42,636 nt of DNA from Sphingobacteriaceae bacterium (GTDB taxonomy: Bacteria; Bacteroidota; Bacteroidia; B-17B0; Aurantibacillaceae): assembly GCA_947453445.1 (NCBI GenBank), contig CANGGP010000025.1:1-42636 (forward strand). The letters run 5' to 3'. A program made the translations under genes and the position numbers. Under the pieces are notes generated by a model, which made no database searches, was not told the DNA's origin, and worked only from the letters and a program-made list of their open reading frames with translations. Below, in pieces: positions 31,398-38,040 of the stretch; the stretch's first letter is position 1; each line of letters starts with the position of its first letter.

Positions 31398-34382
31398 TTA
31401 ATGGGCTTCTAACAATTTTTTTGCTTCAATGCTATCCATATCGTCTTTGTTAATTGTGGCCAAGCGGTATTGGTGACTCACTTCAATATAAATAAAATCA
31501 AATTCGTTCACCACCTTGCCAATGAGTCGGTAGCAACCCGGACCGGTAAATGGAAAGCTTCGGGCAGAAGGGGGGAAGTGCACGGTATCGATCCAATAAC
31601 CTTTGATGTCTAAAAAAGTACCGAAGTACATTTTTTCACCTGAGGAAGTGTTCGTGCGTTTGGTGTTCACCAGGTAGCCAATGATTTCAACGGTTTTGCC
31701 TTCCATTTTTTTAAGATCACTGCTCAACAAACTGTTGTTTATTTTGTCTTTTAATAATTTAAAAGGTGAGCAGAGCGAAAATCCCAAGAGTTCAATTTCA
31801 TCCAAAGCATCATCGAGCCAAGTGTTTTCGAGTTTTGGTAAAGTATAACGTTCAGGTTCTACGTCAAACAATTCTTCGTTTTCGTTTTTTTGTTTGATGG
31901 GATTAATCAACATGTGTGCTTCCCACATCAAGGCCCTTTTGTTAGGATGCAAACTGTTAAAGGCGCCAACACGAATTAATAAACGCAGTTGTTCAATCGA
32001 GATGTTTGTACGTTTGATGAAGTTGTATAAATCGCTGTACAAACCGTTTTGTTCACGTTCGCGAATGATATCAACCACCACTTGCTGTTCGAGATCCGAC
32101 ACCATGTTTAATCCCAAATAAATGCTCTTACCTTTTACTTCGCACAATTCGGTACTTGTATTAACACATGGCGCAATGATAAGCGCGCCGTGCATGCGTG
32201 CTTCATGAATGTATAATTCTTTTCGGTAAAAGCCACCCCCATTATTTAAGGTGGCCACCATATACTCAATGGGGTGGTATGCTTTAAGGTATAAGGCTTG
32301 ATAACTTTCAACCGCATAACTGGCTGAATGTCCTTTCGAAAAAGCAAAATTGGCAAAGCTTTCTATTTGTATCCAAATATTATTCACGGTATCGAAGGGA
32401 TAATTTTTAGCCAAACAATTATTGAAGAATCTTTCTTTTACTTTATTAAACTCGTTGCGTTTTTTAAACTTCCAACTCATGCCGCGCCTTAAGTAATCTG
32501 CATCCGCAAGCGAAAGCCCCGCAAACAAATGCGCTATTTTAATCACATCTTCTTGATACACCATTACACCATAGGTTTCGGCCAACATGTTGTACAAATC
32601 AGGAAGTTCTGCTTTGGCTTTTTCACGTCTTTCTTTGTTGCGGTATCTTAAAATATACTCACGCATCATGCCGCTTTTTGCTACGCCTGGCCTGATAATT
32701 GAACTGGCTGCCACCAAACGCAAATAATCATCTGCTTCTAATTTCGACAGCAACATGCGCATGGCAGGCGATTCAACATAAAAACAACCAATGCATTTGC
32801 CCACGCGCAACAGTTTTTTTATTTCTTCATCGTGCTTAAATTTTGGAATGTCATGTATATCAATGCTGATGTTTTTATTTTTTTGAACGAGCTCAACGGC
32901 ATCTTTAATTTTTCCTAAACCACGCTGACTTAAAATGTCGAATTTAAATAAACCAATGTCTTCAGCTTCCAACATACTAAACTGTGTGGTGGGATAACCC
33001 TTGGGCGGCATAAAGGTGGCACTAAAGGTGCTGATGGGTTCTTCCGAAATTAAAATGCCACTCGAATGGATGCTCAAATGACTAGGAAAACCTGCTATCA
33101 TGGCACTGTATTTTAAAACCAATTGTCCTATACTGTCGGCATCTTTGGGATTATTTACTTTTTGTAAACGGTCAATTTCGCCGGCCGGCAAACCAAACAC
33201 TTTGCCCAGTTCGCGAATCACGGCGTCGTGCTGAAAGGTTGAGTACGTTGCCAATAGCGCAGTGCGATGATAACCAAAACGCTTAAAAATATATTGCGTG
33301 ATGTCGTCGCGATCGGTCCACGAAAAATCAATATCAAAATCGGGGGCATTGCTTCGGTGCTCATTGATAAATCGTTCAAAATACAAATCAAGGTCAATGG
33401 GATCAACATCGGTGATGCGTAACAAATAAGCCACCATGCTGTTGGCGCCGCTGCCTCTGCCAACATAAAAATAATTTTTGGAGGAAGCGTATTGTGTAAT
33501 GTCCCAGTTAATGAGGTAATAAGAAGCAAACTGTTTTTCTTCAATAATTTTGAGTTCTTTTTCAATGCGCGCATATACTTCTGCGGCAGGTTCGGGAAAG
33601 CGGTAAGACAAACCTTCCATGCACAACTTCCGCAACAAAGCCATGTCGCTGCTTAAACTATCGGTATAGAATTTTAAATTTTTATTACTCAGTTTTCCAA
33701 ATTCAAAATTTACTTTGCAATGGTTTAATATGTGTTCGGTGTTTTTAATTATCTGCGGGTAGTCTGAAAAAGCACGGTACAAACCTTCTTTATCGGGCGC
33801 AATTTCATCTGCATCGCCTTGTTCTTCGGGCGGCAGTTTGCTTAGCACCACATTTTTGTCAATGGCCCGCAACAAACGGTGGGCATTGTGTTCGCTTTTA
33901 TTTTGAAAACTTACACCTTGCAACACCACCATTTTTGAAACCTTGTTTTTGTGAATAGAGAAGGGAAGTTTCGAAACATCTTTTTGACTTATTCCGATAA
34001 ATTCATGTGCCTGCAATTTTTGGTTTTTATACTCCGCAAAGGGATAAACCACAAAGGCGTTTTTAAATGCAGGTGCCGTGGTATCAAAATCTTTTTTCTG
34101 ATGCAGGTGATGTGTTAAGTGTTCGTTTAATTCCTGAAAGCCGACATTATTTTTGGCGATGCCAATATACATTTGGCGGATGCCGTTGCGGAAATCAATG
34201 CCGGGAATTACTTTCGGTTGTTTGTTTTCGGTTAGTCGCAGGGCATCAAGTACCGCAGATGTGTTGTTGATGTCGGACAATACAAAGACCTCGTAGTTTT
34301 TTTTTACCAAGTCGTTTAGCAAATCTCGGGTTGAAAGTGTGCCGTAACAAAAGCTGTAATAAGTATGGCAATTGAGTAACAT
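31398..34382 (-). CDS. dnaE: DnaE-type DNA polymerase III alpha subunit, short form (DnaE2/ImuC-like)
   Basis: This 994-residue C-family polymerase is shorter than replicative DnaE (about 1160) and near the size of DnaE2/ImuC translesion polymerases. Catalytic motifs are complete: GRGSGANS (308-315), PDFDIDF with two metal-binding aspartates (347-353), and KFDI (480-483) with the third. A helix-hairpin-helix/finger region and a C-terminal OB-like part (about 875-960, 'MEGKTVEIIGYLVNTKRT') follow. The N-terminal PHP domain (1-90) has lost most metal ligands: the usual HxH start is CHTYYS. dinB lies upstream in the same direction, an arrangement common in Bacteroidota for damage-inducible polymerases. 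Here a RAYT insertion separates them, so co-expression is uncertain. Damage-tolerance function is inferred from family and context. Confidence 0.9.
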   Translation of the reverse strand: MLLNCHTYYSFCYGTLSTRDLLNDLVKKNYEVFVLSDINNTSAVLDALRLTENKQPKVIPGIDFRNGIRQMYIGIAKNNVGFQELNEHLTHHLHQKKDFDTTAPAFKNAFVVYPFAEYKNQKLQAHEFIGISQKDVSKLPFSIHKNKVSKMVVLQGVSFQNKSEHNAHRLLRAIDKNVVLSKLPPEEQGDADEIAPDKEGLYRAFSDYPQIIKNTEHILNHCKVNFEFGKLSNKNLKFYTDSLSSDMALLRKLCMEGLSYRFPEPAAEVYARIEKELKIIEEKQFASYYLINWDITQYASSKNYFYVGRGSGANSMVAYLLRITDVDPIDLDLYFERFINEHRSNAPDFDIDFSWTDRDDITQYIFKRFGYHRTALLATYSTFQHDAVIRELGKVFGLPAGEIDRLQKVNNPKDADSIGQLVLKYSAMIAGFPSHLSIHSSGILISEEPISTFSATFMPPKGYPTTQFSMLEAEDIGLFKFDILSQRGLGKIKDAVELVQKNKNISIDIHDIPKFKHDEEIKKLLRVGKCIGCFYVESPAMRMLLSKLEADDYLRLVAASSIIRPGVAKSGMMREYILRYRNKERREKAKAELPDLYNMLAETYGVMVYQEDVIKIAHLFAGLSLADADYLRRGMSWKFKKRNEFNKVKERFFNNCLAKNYPFDTVNNIWIQIESFANFAFSKGHSASYAVESYQALYLKAYHPIEYMVATLNNGGGFYRKELYIHEARMHGALIIAPCVNTSTELCEVKGKSIYLGLNMVSDLEQQVVVDIIREREQNGLYSDLYNFIKRTNISIEQLRLLIRVGAFNSLHPNKRALMWEAHMLINPIKQKNENEELFDVEPERYTLPKLENTWLDDALDEIELLGFSLCSPFKLLKDKINNSLLSSDLKKMEGKTVEIIGYLVNTKRTNTSSGEKMYFGTFLDIKGYWIDTVHFPPSARSFPFTGPGCYRLIGKVVNEFDFIYIEVSHQYRLATINKDDMDSIEAKKLLEAH

Positions 34383-34414
34383 TGTTTTTTTGTTCGACCC
34401 CTTTTAAGTTTTTT

Positions 34415-34584
34415 TATCTGTTTTGCCTCTCTGAGGCAAGTACTTTATCCTTATTTCTTTTTAAAACTGTTTTGCCTCTCTGAGGCAAAGGTTAAATTAA
34501 TCTAGTGCTTGTTTGCATTTGTAAAATTTTAAATCTGCATTTTTATTTTTCGCCCGGCTCCGGAGGAGCCGAACAGATTTAAAA
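34415..34584. repeat. RAYT-flanking 170-bp repeat, left copy (REP-like hairpins)
   Basis: This 170-bp block is a close direct copy of 35098-35267. It holds three hairpins with 3-base loops: TTGCCTC-TCT-GAGGCAA (34423-34439), TTTGCCTC-TCT-GAGGCAAA (34471-34489) and CGGCTCC-GGA-GGAGCCG (34555-34571). The last is framed by AAATCTG (34531) and CAGATTT (34574). It lies between the transposase stop and the dnaE start, 32 bases from the latter, and so forms the dnaE upstream region. Confidence 0.88.
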
Positions 34585-34594
34585 TGCAATGGAC

Positions 34595-35065
34595 TTAAAA
34601 CGCTGTCTCCATAAAATCAAACAGATGCTCTTCTTTGTATTCAATTCCTTGCTCTTGCAAAAAATCGTAATACTCTTTTTTAAATGTATTTGTCTTATGA
34701 TGCTCTTCTTGGTTATCGATGTAGTTGATTACCTTTCCAATTTCCCTTTTCGAAACGCTAAATGCGCCAAATCCACTTTGCCAATAAAAACATCCTTTGA
34801 TTATTTTTTGCGAATTGATGTATTTAGATGAGTGTTCTTTTATTTCTTTAACCAAATCAGATAGTTTAATAGAGGGTTTACAATTGATCAAAAGATGCAC
34901 ATGGTCGGGCATGCCATTTATTGCAATTAATTTTTGTTTTTGATTCGTAACAACACCTGTTATATATTTATATAATTCATTTTTAATTTTTGGTATGATG
35001 AATGATTCTCTGTTACGCACAGCAAATACGATGTGATAATATATTTGTGAATAGGTGTCTGCCAT
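34595..35065 (-). CDS. REP-associated tyrosine transposase (RAYT, Y1/IS200-like)
   Basis: This 156-residue HUH endonuclease is of the Y1 transposase family. The metal-binding HUH motif is HVH at residues 55-57 (in MPDHVHLLI). The nucleophile is Tyr115 in NYIDNQ, with Gln119 as the usual third metal ligand. The segment 'FYWQSGFGAFSVSKREI' (93-109) is the mark of the REP-associated subfamily rather than of IS200 TnpA. Such enzymes nick single-stranded DNA at palindromic REP sequences. All key residues are intact, so it is probably active. It is flanked by two 170-bp direct repeats and lies between dinB and dnaE in the same orientation. Confidence 0.93.
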   Translation of the reverse strand: MADTYSQIYYHIVFAVRNRESFIIPKIKNELYKYITGVVTNQKQKLIAINGMPDHVHLLINCKPSIKLSDLVKEIKEHSSKYINSQKIIKGCFYWQSGFGAFSVSKREIGKVINYIDNQEEHHKTNTFKKEYYDFLQEQGIEYKEEHLFDFMETAF

Positions 35066-35097
35066 TTTTTATGTGTTAAGGGTTTTTAATAATTATT

Positions 35098-35267
35098 TAT
35101 CTGTTTTGCCTCTCTGAGGCAATTCTTATATCCTTATTTCTTTTTAAAACTGTTTTGCCTCTCTGAGGCAAAGCTTTAATTGAACTAGTGCTTGTTTGCA
35201 TTTGTAAAATTTTAAATCTGCGTTTTTGTTTTTTGCCCGGCTCCGGAGGAGCCGAACAGATTTAAAA
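35098..35267. repeat. RAYT-flanking 170-bp repeat, right copy (REP-like hairpins)
   Basis: The direct copy of 34415-34584 has the same length and only scattered differences. Hairpins: TTGCCTC-TCT-GAGGCAA (35106-35122), TTTGCCTC-TCT-GAGGCAAA (35154-35172) and CGGCTCC-GGA-GGAGCCG (35238-35254). It begins 32 bases upstream of the transposase start, the same distance the left copy has from the dnaE start. Confidence 0.88.
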
Positions 35268-35286
35268 CCGGCCTGCCAAAAAATCC

Positions 35287-35303
35287 TTGCCCCGGAGGGG
35301 CAA
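35287..35303. repeat. Single REP-like hairpin near the dinB stop
   Basis: TTGCCCC-GGA-GGGGCAA is a perfect 7-bp stem with the same GGA loop as the third hairpin of the 170-bp repeats. It is followed by ACAAACAGATTTAA, which matches their right edge, and lies 18 bases from the dinB stop codon. It may also serve as terminator for dinB. Confidence 0.75.
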
Positions 35304-35321
35304 AACACAAACAGATTTAAT

Positions 35322-36578
35322 TTATACATCAAACGCGATGTCATCATACGAACTTGTTTCATCCCTCTGTAACTTTTGTTTGACTTTTTCACCTTCTTTC
35401 TTAATGCCGTTAAATAAATTTGCATCACGCTTATTCAAATCCAAGCCCGCTGCACGCATCACCGCCTCCTCACCAAAACGTTTGCGCAGTTTATCCATGG
35501 CAGAATACAACTGCACCTTTTCACTGGTGTCGTCAAATAAATCAAATTGATAAGTGCCCTGAATTAAATGACTGAAGCGAATGCCAATCAAACGAATCAT
35601 CATGCGCTTTTGAAATAATTTATCAAACAAATCTTTTACCTTGTCCAATAACACACTGTCTAATGCCGTATAGGCAATCCGGGCCTGCATGGTATAAGTA
35701 TTAAAATCCGAATAGCGAATTTTTACGGTAACACACGACGTTAATTTTTCTTCACTCCGCAACTGAAATCCCAATTTTTCTGTCATGCTCACCAACACCC
35801 TTTTTAAATGGTAAATATCAATGGTGTCTTTTTCAAAGGTGCATTCGGTTGAAATAGATTTGCGCTCATTGTAAGGTTCAACTGGCGAATTGTCAATACC
35901 ATTGGCCTTGCGCCATATCACCGGCCCGTTTTCACCCAGCACCTGTTGCATCACTTTAATGGGCATCTCTTGAACAGTTTTTACTTTTTCAATGCCCATG
36001 CCCCGCAGCAATTGATAGGTTTTTTCGCCAACCATCGGAATTTTTTTAATCGACAAAGGCGCTAAATAATTTTTTTCGGTACCATAAGGAATTTCTTGCT
36101 GACCATTGGGCTTTATTTCTCCCGTTCCAATTTTTGCCACCGTTTTGTTACACGACAAAGCAAAAGAAATCGGCAAATGGGTTTCCTTCATTATTTTTTC
36201 GCGAATTTCAGTGGCCAACTTGTAACAGCCAAAATACTTGTCCATCCCCGTCATGTCTACATAAAACTCATCAATCGATGCCTTTTCATACAAAGGCACA
36301 CGCTCTTTAATGATTTCAGTTACATCGTTCGAAAATTTACTGTATTGCTCATGGTCACCACGCACAATAACGGCATGTGGACATAACAAGCGCGCCATTC
36401 GCATGGGCATGGCCGAATGTATCCCAAAACTGCGGGCTTCATAACTGCACGATGCCACAACACCCCTGTCGCTGCTGCCACCCACCAAAACCGGTAAACC
36501 AATTAATTTCGGATTGATCAGTCTTTCTACCGACACAAAAAAACTGTCTAAATCCATGTGCATTATTTGTCGGTTCAT
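35322..36578 (-). CDS. dinB: DNA polymerase IV (Y-family, DinB)
   Basis: DinB is a Y-family translesion polymerase. The 418-residue protein has the catalytic residues D9 (HMDLDSFF) and D103-E104 (ASIDEFYVDMTG), the steric 'SYEARSFGIHSAMPM' segment (45-58), the HhH region 'IPMVGEKTYQLLRGMGIEKVKTVQEM' (about 178-203) and the little-finger domain from about 240. The C-terminus after residue 350 is long and charged; a beta-clamp motif may lie in 'QGTYQFDLFDD' (QFDLF), near 340. It is probably the first gene of a damage-tolerance unit with the short dnaE downstream. No lexA or imuA homologue is seen nearby. Its promoter must lie within the short space to, or inside, the adjoining repeat copy at 36619. 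Confidence 0.96.
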   Translation of the reverse strand: MNRQIMHMDLDSFFVSVERLINPKLIGLPVLVGGSSDRGVVASCSYEARSFGIHSAMPMRMARLLCPHAVIVRGDHEQYSKFSNDVTEIIKERVPLYEKASIDEFYVDMTGMDKYFGCYKLATEIREKIMKETHLPISFALSCNKTVAKIGTGEIKPNGQQEIPYGTEKNYLAPLSIKKIPMVGEKTYQLLRGMGIEKVKTVQEMPIKVMQQVLGENGPVIWRKANGIDNSPVEPYNERKSISTECTFEKDTIDIYHLKRVLVSMTEKLGFQLRSEEKLTSCVTVKIRYSDFNTYTMQARIAYTALDSVLLDKVKDLFDKLFQKRMMIRLIGIRFSHLIQGTYQFDLFDDTSEKVQLYSAMDKLRKRFGEEAVMRAAGLDLNKRDANLFNGIKKEGEKVKQKLQRDETSSYDDIAFDV

Positions 36579-36618
36579 CTTTTTTGAAAGTATATCGTTT
36601 TCTTTTTGTTTTATTTTT

Positions 36619-37090
36619 TTTGGGCGCCTGTCGGTGCAGACTACTTTGTTTTTGTAAAAGTCTGCACCGCCACTGGGCTCTCACTAGTCGCTCTCCGCTT
36701 TTCAAAAATGTTAAGGCGAGCGGAGGAGCTCCAGCAGGCCGTTCGATCCCTGGCGCAGAAATCGGCACGGCAGTTCGGATTGTAAAAAATTAAACTCATA
36801 CGCGTATTTTAATGTTTCTGTTTTTTCGTATAAATATTTTTTTTGGGCGCCTGTCGGTGCAGACAGTTTTGTTTTTGTAAAAGTCTGCACCGCCACCGGG
36901 CTCTCACTAGTCGCTCTCCGCTTTTCAAAAATGTTAAGGCGAGCGGAGGAGCTCCAACAGGCCGTTCGATCCCTGGCGCAGAAATCGGCACGGCAATACG
37001 GATTGTAAAAAATTAAAATCATACGCGTATTTTTAATGTTTCTGTTTTTTTGTATAAATATTTTTTTGGGCGCCTGTCGGTGCAGACAGC
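36619..37090 (-). repeat. Tandem array of the interspersed repeat (223-bp period, 2 copies plus fragment)
   Basis: This array occupies nearly the whole 514-base gap between dinB and the ORF6N gene. The landmark gggcgcctgtcggtgcagac starts at 36622, 36845 and 37068, exactly 223 bases apart. Each full copy (read on the minus strand) has the head TGCGCCAGGGATCGAA (36742-36757; 36965-36980), an inner stem CTCCGCT/AGCGGAG, GAGCCC, a terminal hairpin GGTGCAGAC/GTCTGCACC (36633-36668; 36856-36891) and the tail GCGCCCAAAA. The third copy is only the last 23 bases and ends at the ORF6N stop. No genuine gene is present in the array. Confidence 0.88.
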
Positions 37091-37092
37091 TG

Positions 37093-37653
37093 TTATTTTG
37101 AATTAAAACCTATTGCTTTTCTTTCTTTTACAGGTGAAGTGATGAATTGCTTAAGGACTTTAAAAATAATTTCTATATCCGCTTCATGTTTTTTGCTTTT
37201 TTGACTTTGAACAGAAAGAGTTTTTTCTAATTCATTTATTTTTAAAAGCAAATCGTTTTGGCTCATCATAAACTCACGCATCCGGGTAAAAATCCTGATA
37301 ATTTGGATATTTACTTCTATGGCTGTTTCACTATTTAAAACGCTTGAAAGCATTGCAACACCTTGTTCGGTAAAGACGTTCGGCATTTTTCTAAGACCTA
37401 ATTTTTCCTTATTGGAAGTCGCATTTTGCGACTTCCAGTTTTCTAACTCTCTCGCTGTTAATTGAAACATAAAGTCGCTTGGAAAGCGTTTTTCATTACG
37501 TTTCACTTGTTCATTGAGTCGTTTAGTTGCAACACCATACATACTTGCTAAATCTCTCCCGATAGCCATCGGGACCAACATTACTTTTTTACCCCGAATC
37601 AGGTAAATTTTGCGCATCACGCCTTCGTCTGTAATATTTAAATTTTTGTTCAT
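37093..37653 (-). CDS. ORF6N domain protein
   Basis: This 186-residue protein carries an N-terminal ORF6N domain (about 12-105), a DNA-binding-like domain known from phage antirepressors and many Bacteroidota chromosomal genes. The family pattern is visible as 'IYLIRGKKVMLVPMAIGRDLASMYGV', 'RNEKRFPSDFMFQLT', 'RKMPNVFTEQGVAMLSSVL' and 'IRIFTRMREFM'. A coiled coil (about 120-155) follows, and a short basic end. ORF6N genes are often carried by phages or mobile islands; no other phage gene is present here. Both sides carry members of the interspersed repeat family. Confidence 0.9.
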   Translation of the reverse strand: MNKNLNITDEGVMRKIYLIRGKKVMLVPMAIGRDLASMYGVATKRLNEQVKRNEKRFPSDFMFQLTARELENWKSQNATSNKEKLGLRKMPNVFTEQGVAMLSSVLNSETAIEVNIQIIRIFTRMREFMMSQNDLLLKINELEKTLSVQSQKSKKHEADIEIIFKVLKQFITSPVKERKAIGFNSK

Positions 37654-37691
37654 GCCATTTTGCTTTACATATTATTAGCCAAAATCCTGAA

Positions 37692-37735
37692 CTAAGTTAC
37701 TACGTATTATGGAAGTGTATTGCTACAAATTGTAG
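37692..37735 (-). promoter_or_regulatory. Possible promoter and operator of the ORF6N gene
   Basis: The minus strand reads TAACTTAG at 37699-37692 (one mismatch to TAnnTTTG), about 39 bases before the start codon. The perfect 13-base palindrome CTACAAATTGTAG (37723-37735) lies upstream of it and contains a TTTG on the minus strand, but the spacing of 26 is longer than usual. Weak evidence. Confidence 0.3.
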
Positions 37736-37762
37736 TTAAATACAAAAGTATTTTTTGTTGTG

Positions 37763-37891
37763 TTTGGGCGCAAGCCATGAAGCAAAAAGCAGCAGGTTAA
37801 TGAGTTAATTTTGCTTCATGGGTCGGGCTCCTGCGGGCTGCGGCTTCACGCTGAAAAAGCGTGAGAGCTAACCCTTCGTATCCCTTGCGCA
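37763..37891 (-). repeat. Interspersed intergenic repeat, copy 3
   Basis: This copy lies in the 414-base divergent gap between ORF6N and the SDR gene. On the minus strand it reads: head TGCGCAAGGGATACGAA (37891-37875), an inner 7-bp hairpin TCACGCT/AGCGTGA (37846-37864), GAGCCCGACC (37830-37821), a 13-bp perfect terminal hairpin CCATGAAGCAAAA/TTTTGCTTCATGG (37775-37821) and the tail GCGCCCAAA (37771-37763). The rest of the gap (37892-38067) has only the SDR promoter region. Confidence 0.78.
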
Positions 37892-38040
37892 GCATTTTAA
37901 ACATGAAATCTTCTTATATTTCAAGGTGCCCTGAGATTTTGACAAAAAGGAACCAAACATTGTTAAAGGAGAAAAACAATTCTGATTGAATATTACGTAA
38001 GAATAAAATTTTATAAATTATTCCGTAATCATTAATCCCC

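Follow-up and report, generated by a model that had tools for sequence, protein, structure and literature searches.

The window analysed here is a whole stretch of 42,636 nt (contig CANGGP010000025.1, positions 1 to 42,636) from the draft assembly GCA_947453445.1 of a Sphingobacteriaceae bacterium, which comprises 153 contigs and is denoted G000 among the genomes of its family. Its minus strand carries a gene unit that runs from an SOS-type operator through an ORF6N-domain gene, dinB, a repeat, tnpA and a second copy of the repeat to dnaE, with the ORF6N gene now separating the operator from dinB:

37720-37736, minus strand: SOS-type operator ACTACAATTTGTAGCAA at the head of the operon (position weight matrix score 26.1)
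37653-37093, minus strand: ORF6N-domain gene between operator and dinB (Pfam ORF6N, 106 bits)
36612-37099: tandem repeat of 223 nt in 2.2 copies, between the ORF6N gene and dinB
36578-35322, minus strand: dinB, DNA polymerase IV (IMS profile match)
35285-35305, minus strand: terminator-like hairpin directly after dinB, outside the duplicated repeat (terminator scan)
35093-35267, minus strand: three-hairpin repeat unit upstream of tnpA
35065-34595, minus strand: tnpA, encoding a HUH/Y1 nuclease of 156 aa (Pfam Y1_Tnp, 99.7 bits)
34410-34584, minus strand: three-hairpin repeat unit upstream of dnaE
34382-31398, minus strand: short dnaE (994 aa), the final gene of the unit (DNA_pol3_alpha profile match)

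A scan of 34300-38000 against Rfam at gathering thresholds returned no known structured RNA. The ORF6N coding sequence contains a GTCGCAAWWTGCGAC-type palindrome (37414-37437) that is also present inside the ORF6N gene of one relative, G058; similar palindromes lie just outside the ORF6N gene of G054 and, in degenerate form, outside that of G058 (L095, L094).

The tnpA gene is bracketed by two direct repeats of 175 nt each (34410-34584 and 35093-35267), which are 93% identical and both start 27 nt before an ATG, that of dnaE at 34382 and that of tnpA at 35065. Each repeat holds three short palindromes with the common foot CTGTT (or AACAG), a further hairpin, with a run of T, lies just after dinB, and both inter-gene RNAs are more stable than 200 of 200 shuffled sequences (z -5.0 and -3.75). 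Both the length and the folding bear out the first-pass annotation of this DNA, which had described two hairpin-rich repeats of about 170 bp around the gene; it had also placed them 32 bases from the two start codons, and while the equal distance and the identical upstream context of dnaE and tnpA were correctly seen, the value is 27 nt. A search of the genome with the repeat gave nine matches, of which the only two at full length are those of this locus. A pattern for two of the repeat's hairpin types matched 28 places at up to two mismatches, compared to none for the reversed control, and 21 of the 28 fall on contigs C12, C65, C95 and C122. On C12 and C65 the hairpins form tandem units of ~171 and ~185 nt, and inspection of these arrays revealed no tnpA there; on C95 and C122 they lie at contig ends, and C147 has a single hairpin near its end. 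The arrangement in the window is most readily understood as a two-unit stretch of such an array with tnpA in the middle, and it is because tnpA sits within a two-unit array that it has the same upstream context as dnaE. At another locus (L223, 1700-2700), at least four repeat units of ~171 nt directly follow what by eye is an apparent tRNA 3' end.

The repeat could in principle give dnaE a new promoter, end dinB messages, or do both, in which case the element would set the ratio of the two polymerases. The strong folding of both inter-gene RNAs is in keeping with this, and the sense strand has one terminator-like hairpin, at 35285-35305 after dinB; the earlier suggestion that the hairpins end dinB messages thus retains a candidate, albeit one outside the duplicated repeat. 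The suggestion of a new dnaE promoter found little support. A scan for sigma-70-like sites on the sense strand of 34383-34594 found none before dnaE, and a search for TTG-N17-25-TAnnTTWG, the promoter form of Bacteroidota, gave no match in either inter-gene stretch. Moreover, tnpA and dnaE have their upstream context in common because tnpA lies within two units of a repeat that is arrayed elsewhere, and the gap repeats differ among relatives. The repeat may hold a promoter of a different kind, or some transcripts may end after dinB, and read-through from the dinB operator is a simpler reading than a promoter in the repeat; control of the polymerases by the repeat appears improbable to us.

In translation, TnpA displays H55-V-H57, W95-Q96 and Y115-IDNQEEHH (residue numbers counted by hand), matching as PDHVH, WQ and YIDNQEEHH the signature DH[IV]H, WQ, Y---Q--HH of TnpA_Y1 subclass 1.2, to which the protein would, on these motifs, belong. 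It resembles this subclass, as described in the part of Quentin et al. (2018; PMC6006769) used here, in signature, in a length of ~150 aa, in its occurrence in Bacteroidetes and in low copy number, tnpA being single copy in the genome with one other Y1_Tnp match that lies at the cut-off. It differs in one reported, though not defining, property: the same part of that paper lists the low-copy subclass 1.2 without REPs, whereas hairpin repeats flank tnpA in the window and in many relatives. Across 45 family tnpA loci, perfect GC-rich hairpins average 2.02 per 600 nt (300 nt on each side) vs 0.03 in shuffled sequence, with at least one hairpin within 300 nt at 32 loci and none at 13. Outside the family, the 28 best-scoring tnpA loci, a non-random set in which some flanks are short, average 1.75 per 600 nt vs 0.06 when shuffled; 19 have at least one hairpin within 300 nt and nine have none. 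For comparison, random stretches of named loci contain 0.09 per 600 nt, and the 300 nt upstream of ORF6N and GIY-YIG genes contain 0.30 and 0.15, respectively, both of which exceed their own shuffles. On these counts, subclass 1.2-like genes are therefore frequently REP-associated in this class: although the enzymes have been described as lacking REPs, many of those seen here look like REPtrons.

The first-pass annotation had called the gene an intact RAYT. The reading frame of 156 aa is intact, but profile and motifs make it IS200-like: NCBIfam transpos_IS200 scores 82.7 bits, above its cut-off of 55, and REP_Tyr_transpos 43.6 bits, below its cut-off of 80. We rejected a canonical RAYT (class 2) on this score and on the Y motif, which reads YIDNQ without an NP ending. 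One property of RAYTs is nonetheless present, in that the flanking palindromes recur elsewhere in the genome (28 matches vs 0 in the control). As in the REPtron/RAYT systems with BIMEs, such as E. coli rayT, a single-copy Y1 gene is combined with flanking palindromes that recur in the genome; unlike them, TnpA is of class 1 with YIDNQ in place of the Y..NP motif, the hairpin foot is CTGTT/AACAG rather than GTAG, and the module sits in a putative SOS operon. An ordinary IS200/IS605 insertion that reached this gap by chance would account for the transpos_IS200 score and for the solved structures matching TnpA, which are annotated as transposases, one of them as ISHp608. Such elements are recognised by several near-identical copies with fixed ends, whereas one copy was found here, the other Y1_Tnp match of the genome being only at the cut-off; the flanking hairpins also occur as arrays that showed no tnpA, and three TnpA clades occur at one and the same gene pair (see below). 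A chance insertion is thus highly improbable.

To place the module among relatives, dnaE and dinB were searched in 87 genomes of the family. A hand count gives 52 adjacent co-directional dinB-dnaE pairs, with three further gaps cut by contig ends beyond a dinB-side module (G036, G041, G056) and five dnaE genes unlinked from dinB. The gap is normally tight, being shorter than 220 nt in 38 of the 52 pairs. In the wider phylum, dinB lies directly upstream of dnaE at 41 of 80 named loci and directly downstream at 22. The statement in the first-pass annotation that the two genes are close neighbours in many Bacteroidota holds at both levels, and the comparison of spacing it had called for confirms that the REP-type module lies within a usually compact unit. 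Genes occupy 15 of the 55 family gaps, all 15 co-directional with the polymerases (pairs, gaps and occupied gaps were counted by hand, excluding a repeat-derived open reading frame in G037). The occupants are diverse: TnpA like that of the window (G000, G003, G017, G028, G041), GIY-YIG proteins (G008, frameshifted; G013, G018, G036), ORF6N proteins (G032, G054, G056, G058), a second type of Y1 protein (G053) and a YhcG/DUF1016 nuclease (G064). Palindromes of differing kinds accompany the modules in the gaps whose sequence was read. The GIY-YIG gap genes (L085, L086, L088, L114) occur with CTTCGACT-type imperfect palindromes, repeats of this type being present also in L091, L097, L099 and L113, which suggests a second nuclease-plus-palindrome module built on another enzyme family. 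In the G064 gap (L096), a GGCAGACAGTGTCTGCC palindrome lies within the YhcG/DUF1016 nuclease gene and on its downstream side, and in other Bacteroidota a gene that by eye is SRAP/HMCES-like lies between dinB and dnaE (L162, L201, L205).

A tree of 33 TnpA sequences places the in-gap copies in three supported clades, each of which also has copies at other loci; the branching of G003, G017 and G041 within their own clade is unresolved. Among the flanking genes of 51 TnpA loci (matches to E 8.2e-39, without weaker and partial ones), dinB-dnaE is the sole both-sided neighbour pair common to three clades. Two clades agree in both neighbours at one other site, where one copy was assigned to its clade on the basis of 58% identity. 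On the downstream side alone, three clades have a homologous neighbour; its orientation varies, and it has the look of a gene family more than of a single site. Counted by hand as one event per kind and clade, an approach tested by a tree for TnpA alone, at least eight insertions into the gap have occurred, all in one direction. What appears to be an accident, in which a mobile gene has split a mutagenic operon, is in this way a recurrent arrangement (three TnpA clades, at least eight insertions, one direction). For tnpA copies not in the gap, neighbours (taken as the longest open frame) are co-directional at 21 of 24 loci on the upstream side and at 15 of 28 on the downstream side.

This recurrence could also arise if the operon is simply a cheap harbour: being silent without DNA damage, it would tolerate sense inserts at little cost, and SOS expression of TnpA would be a by-product from which no one need benefit. 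The mixed tenancy of the gap, with four GIY-YIG genes, the YhcG-type nuclease and the second Y1 type, speaks for this explanation, as does the occurrence of antisense inserts in the wider phylum (L150, L165, L204, L221; named by eye). Its main difficulty comes from the distribution of the operator itself.

The upstream regions of dinB in most of the relatives examined have in common the palindrome GCTAYAAWTTRTAGCAA (CTAY-N5-RTAG). A matrix of 17 positions was trained on dinB upstreams alone, using 28 of 31 sites and leaving out three, with its consensus written after the dyads in these regions had been examined; at score 10 its background is 0.585 hits per 10 kb, and for 23 of its 28 training sites the distance from the first base of the operator to the start codon is 49-75 nt. 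Two other patterns were rejected as the operator, namely the exact CTAA-N5-TTAG, present in four of 32 dinB upstreams, and GGA-N5-TCC, present in two of 32. According to the part of PMC8565304 used here, an S24 regulator from Bacteroidetes recognises CTAA-N5-TTAG, with degenerate forms of the site also working in some clades; the operator described here has the same 4-N5-4 dyad spacing and differs by one base from the published dyad. The exact pattern occurs at five places in the genome vs 0.15 expected from base composition, preceding the gene for an HTH-S24 (LexA-like) protein, ruvB, the operon of the window and, at two places, no known SOS gene. Places with one mismatch are at chance level (six vs 5.4 expected), among them a site of matrix score 23.4 before a Radical_SAM gene whose SPL match, at 26 bits, is below the cut-off of 27, and at two mismatches the pattern barely exceeds its reversed control (83 vs 72). 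Of the exact and one-mismatch places taken together (11), four lie before SOS-type genes and seven before unknown or unrelated genes or nothing convincing.

With the HTH-S24 gene and ruvB behind exact matches, the operator has targets expected of a Bacteroidetes SOS regulon, which according to the same part of PMC8565304 is controlled by a non-canonical LexA and includes the S24 regulator, ruvB, splB and dinB; the likeness extends to the dinB-dnaE operon, ruvB and the S24 regulator as targets. Unlike that regulon, the one seen here would include TnpA and ORF6N, and the main text of PMC8565304 contains no occurrence of transpos, ORF6N or KilA. A search of this draft, rated 100% complete, for RecA (PF00154) gave no match, whereas all 14 control genomes matched. 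Since RecA is needed for SOS, this unexpected result counts against an SOS reading unless it reflects an assembly gap, as is perhaps the case, and together with the chance level of the one-mismatch matches it lowered our confidence in that reading.

At other loci of the family, an operator lies within 300 nt upstream of tnpA in 17 of 45 cases and downstream in one of 45, with ~0.8 expected. Five of the first 27 loci (L135, L136, L138, L140, L142) had prompted the idea; the proportion is nine of 27 in this first set and eight of 18 in the set fetched after the motif had been defined. These 45 are drawn from 46 non-gap copies, G068:C3 having been left out with 35 nt of upstream sequence, and L337 and L338 were unused. 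The 28 copies without an operator include all readable members of the clade nearest the window's copy. Outside the family the operator precedes one of 26 tnpA genes, two of the 28 loci having been dropped for upstream stretches of less than 150 nt, and we accordingly rejected a phylum-wide SOS control of tnpA with this operator. Of 40 ORF6N genes at other loci of the family, 24 are preceded by the operator, the sample being 38 of the first 43 listed places plus two of this genome, out of 185 matches (summed by hand), with the in-gap genes of G056 and G058 and those of G061, G072 and G028 passed over. GIY-YIG genes elsewhere have it in one of 20 cases (20 places among the first 25 listed, with 43-60% identity; the in-gap genes of G013, G018 and G036 were passed over, as were one gene from G026 and one from G069). 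These samples were taken in list order and are non-random. The near absence of the operator at GIY-YIG genes and the 28 tnpA copies without one again favour the cheap harbour; it leaves unexplained why tnpA (17/45) and ORF6N genes (24/40) have operators of their own at unrelated loci, and we would grant it no more than a modest chance of being correct.

Genes that by eye resemble those of topoisomerase IV form the neighbourhood of clade A2 tnpA copies: in G070 and G057 the copy is flanked by a parE-like and a parC-like gene, and in G068 it directly precedes a parC-like gene, in each case co-directionally (L130, L131, L132). The topoisomerase IV operon is predicted to be SOS-controlled in other Bacteroidetes in the part of PMC8565304 used here; as an SOS host of TnpA clade A2 it was rejected, no operator having been found upstream of parE at the two loci with both genes.

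How dnaE would come under the same control is indicated by the dnaE genes unlinked from dinB. Three of the five dnaE genes unlinked from dinB have an operator of their own, with scores of 27.3 in G010 and, more weakly, 13.7 in G033 and 11.0 in G009, and none in G023 and G047. In 24 dinB-dnaE gap stretches from 22 genomes, mainly with longer gaps, no operator reaches a score of 10, the highest being 7.7. With no operator in these gaps and one at some unlinked dnaE genes, linked dnaE is most likely transcribed by read-through from dinB. The two unlinked dnaE genes that have no operator and the terminator-like hairpin after dinB count against the SOS reading of the unit.

We therefore favour, with moderate confidence, the reading that a REPtron-like module, consisting of a single-copy subclass 1.2 TnpA and its hairpin repeats, resides in a dinB-dnaE SOS operon and rides on SOS transcription. 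An XRE/S24 LexA-like repressor would be expected to bind the operator at 37720-37736 and hold the unit repressed; upon DNA damage its release would induce a transcript spanning ORF6N, dinB, tnpA and dnaE. TnpA would then appear together with the translesion polymerases at a time when single-stranded DNA is plentiful, on which it could nick and rejoin its hairpins. Relatives would have reached SOS control by two routes: in one, tnpA lies in the dinB-dnaE gap; in the other, it lies at a different locus and has an operator copy to itself. The first-pass annotation had proposed the reverse dependence, with mutagenic polymerase expression placed under a mobile element; this finds little support, and the relatives, in which modules appear to enter SOS control instead, suggest that such enzymes repeatedly came under the SOS switch.

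A bolder extension is that subclass 1.2 REP-processing HUH nucleases and ORF6N proteins are genuine SOS effectors, with selection keeping LexA-type control over them, by their own operator or by capture in the dinB-dnaE gap, such that hairpin nicking of single-stranded DNA and translesion synthesis are delivered together. We put this forward tentatively and consider it rather unlikely as it stands; if true, the spread of REPs and mutagenesis would belong to a single, coupled response to damage. For the REPtron-like module riding on SOS transcription, an SOS operator before a nuclease gene would provide a concrete induction condition for REP movement, namely DNA damage and abundant single-stranded DNA.

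Searches of open-licence PMC text yielded no account of a REP-type nuclease, or of ORF6N genes, being under SOS control, and the part of PMC6006769 used here makes no mention of SOS control. Transposase expression or transposition has been linked to DNA damage for ISCR (PMC13393415) and for an insertion sequence of Deinococcus (PMC2806898), as far as the parts of these papers used here describe them; both are insertion sequences, whereas a REP-type module embedded in a polymerase operon is found here. By the same limited use of the sources, CGTC repeats are named in Bacteroidetes (PMC3733652), and rayT is a row in a table (PMC7606416). In E. coli K-12 (L318), 2.8 kb holding just two pseudogenes separate dinB from the rayT gene upstream of it. 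The damage-linked Deinococcus element is presumably ISDra2.
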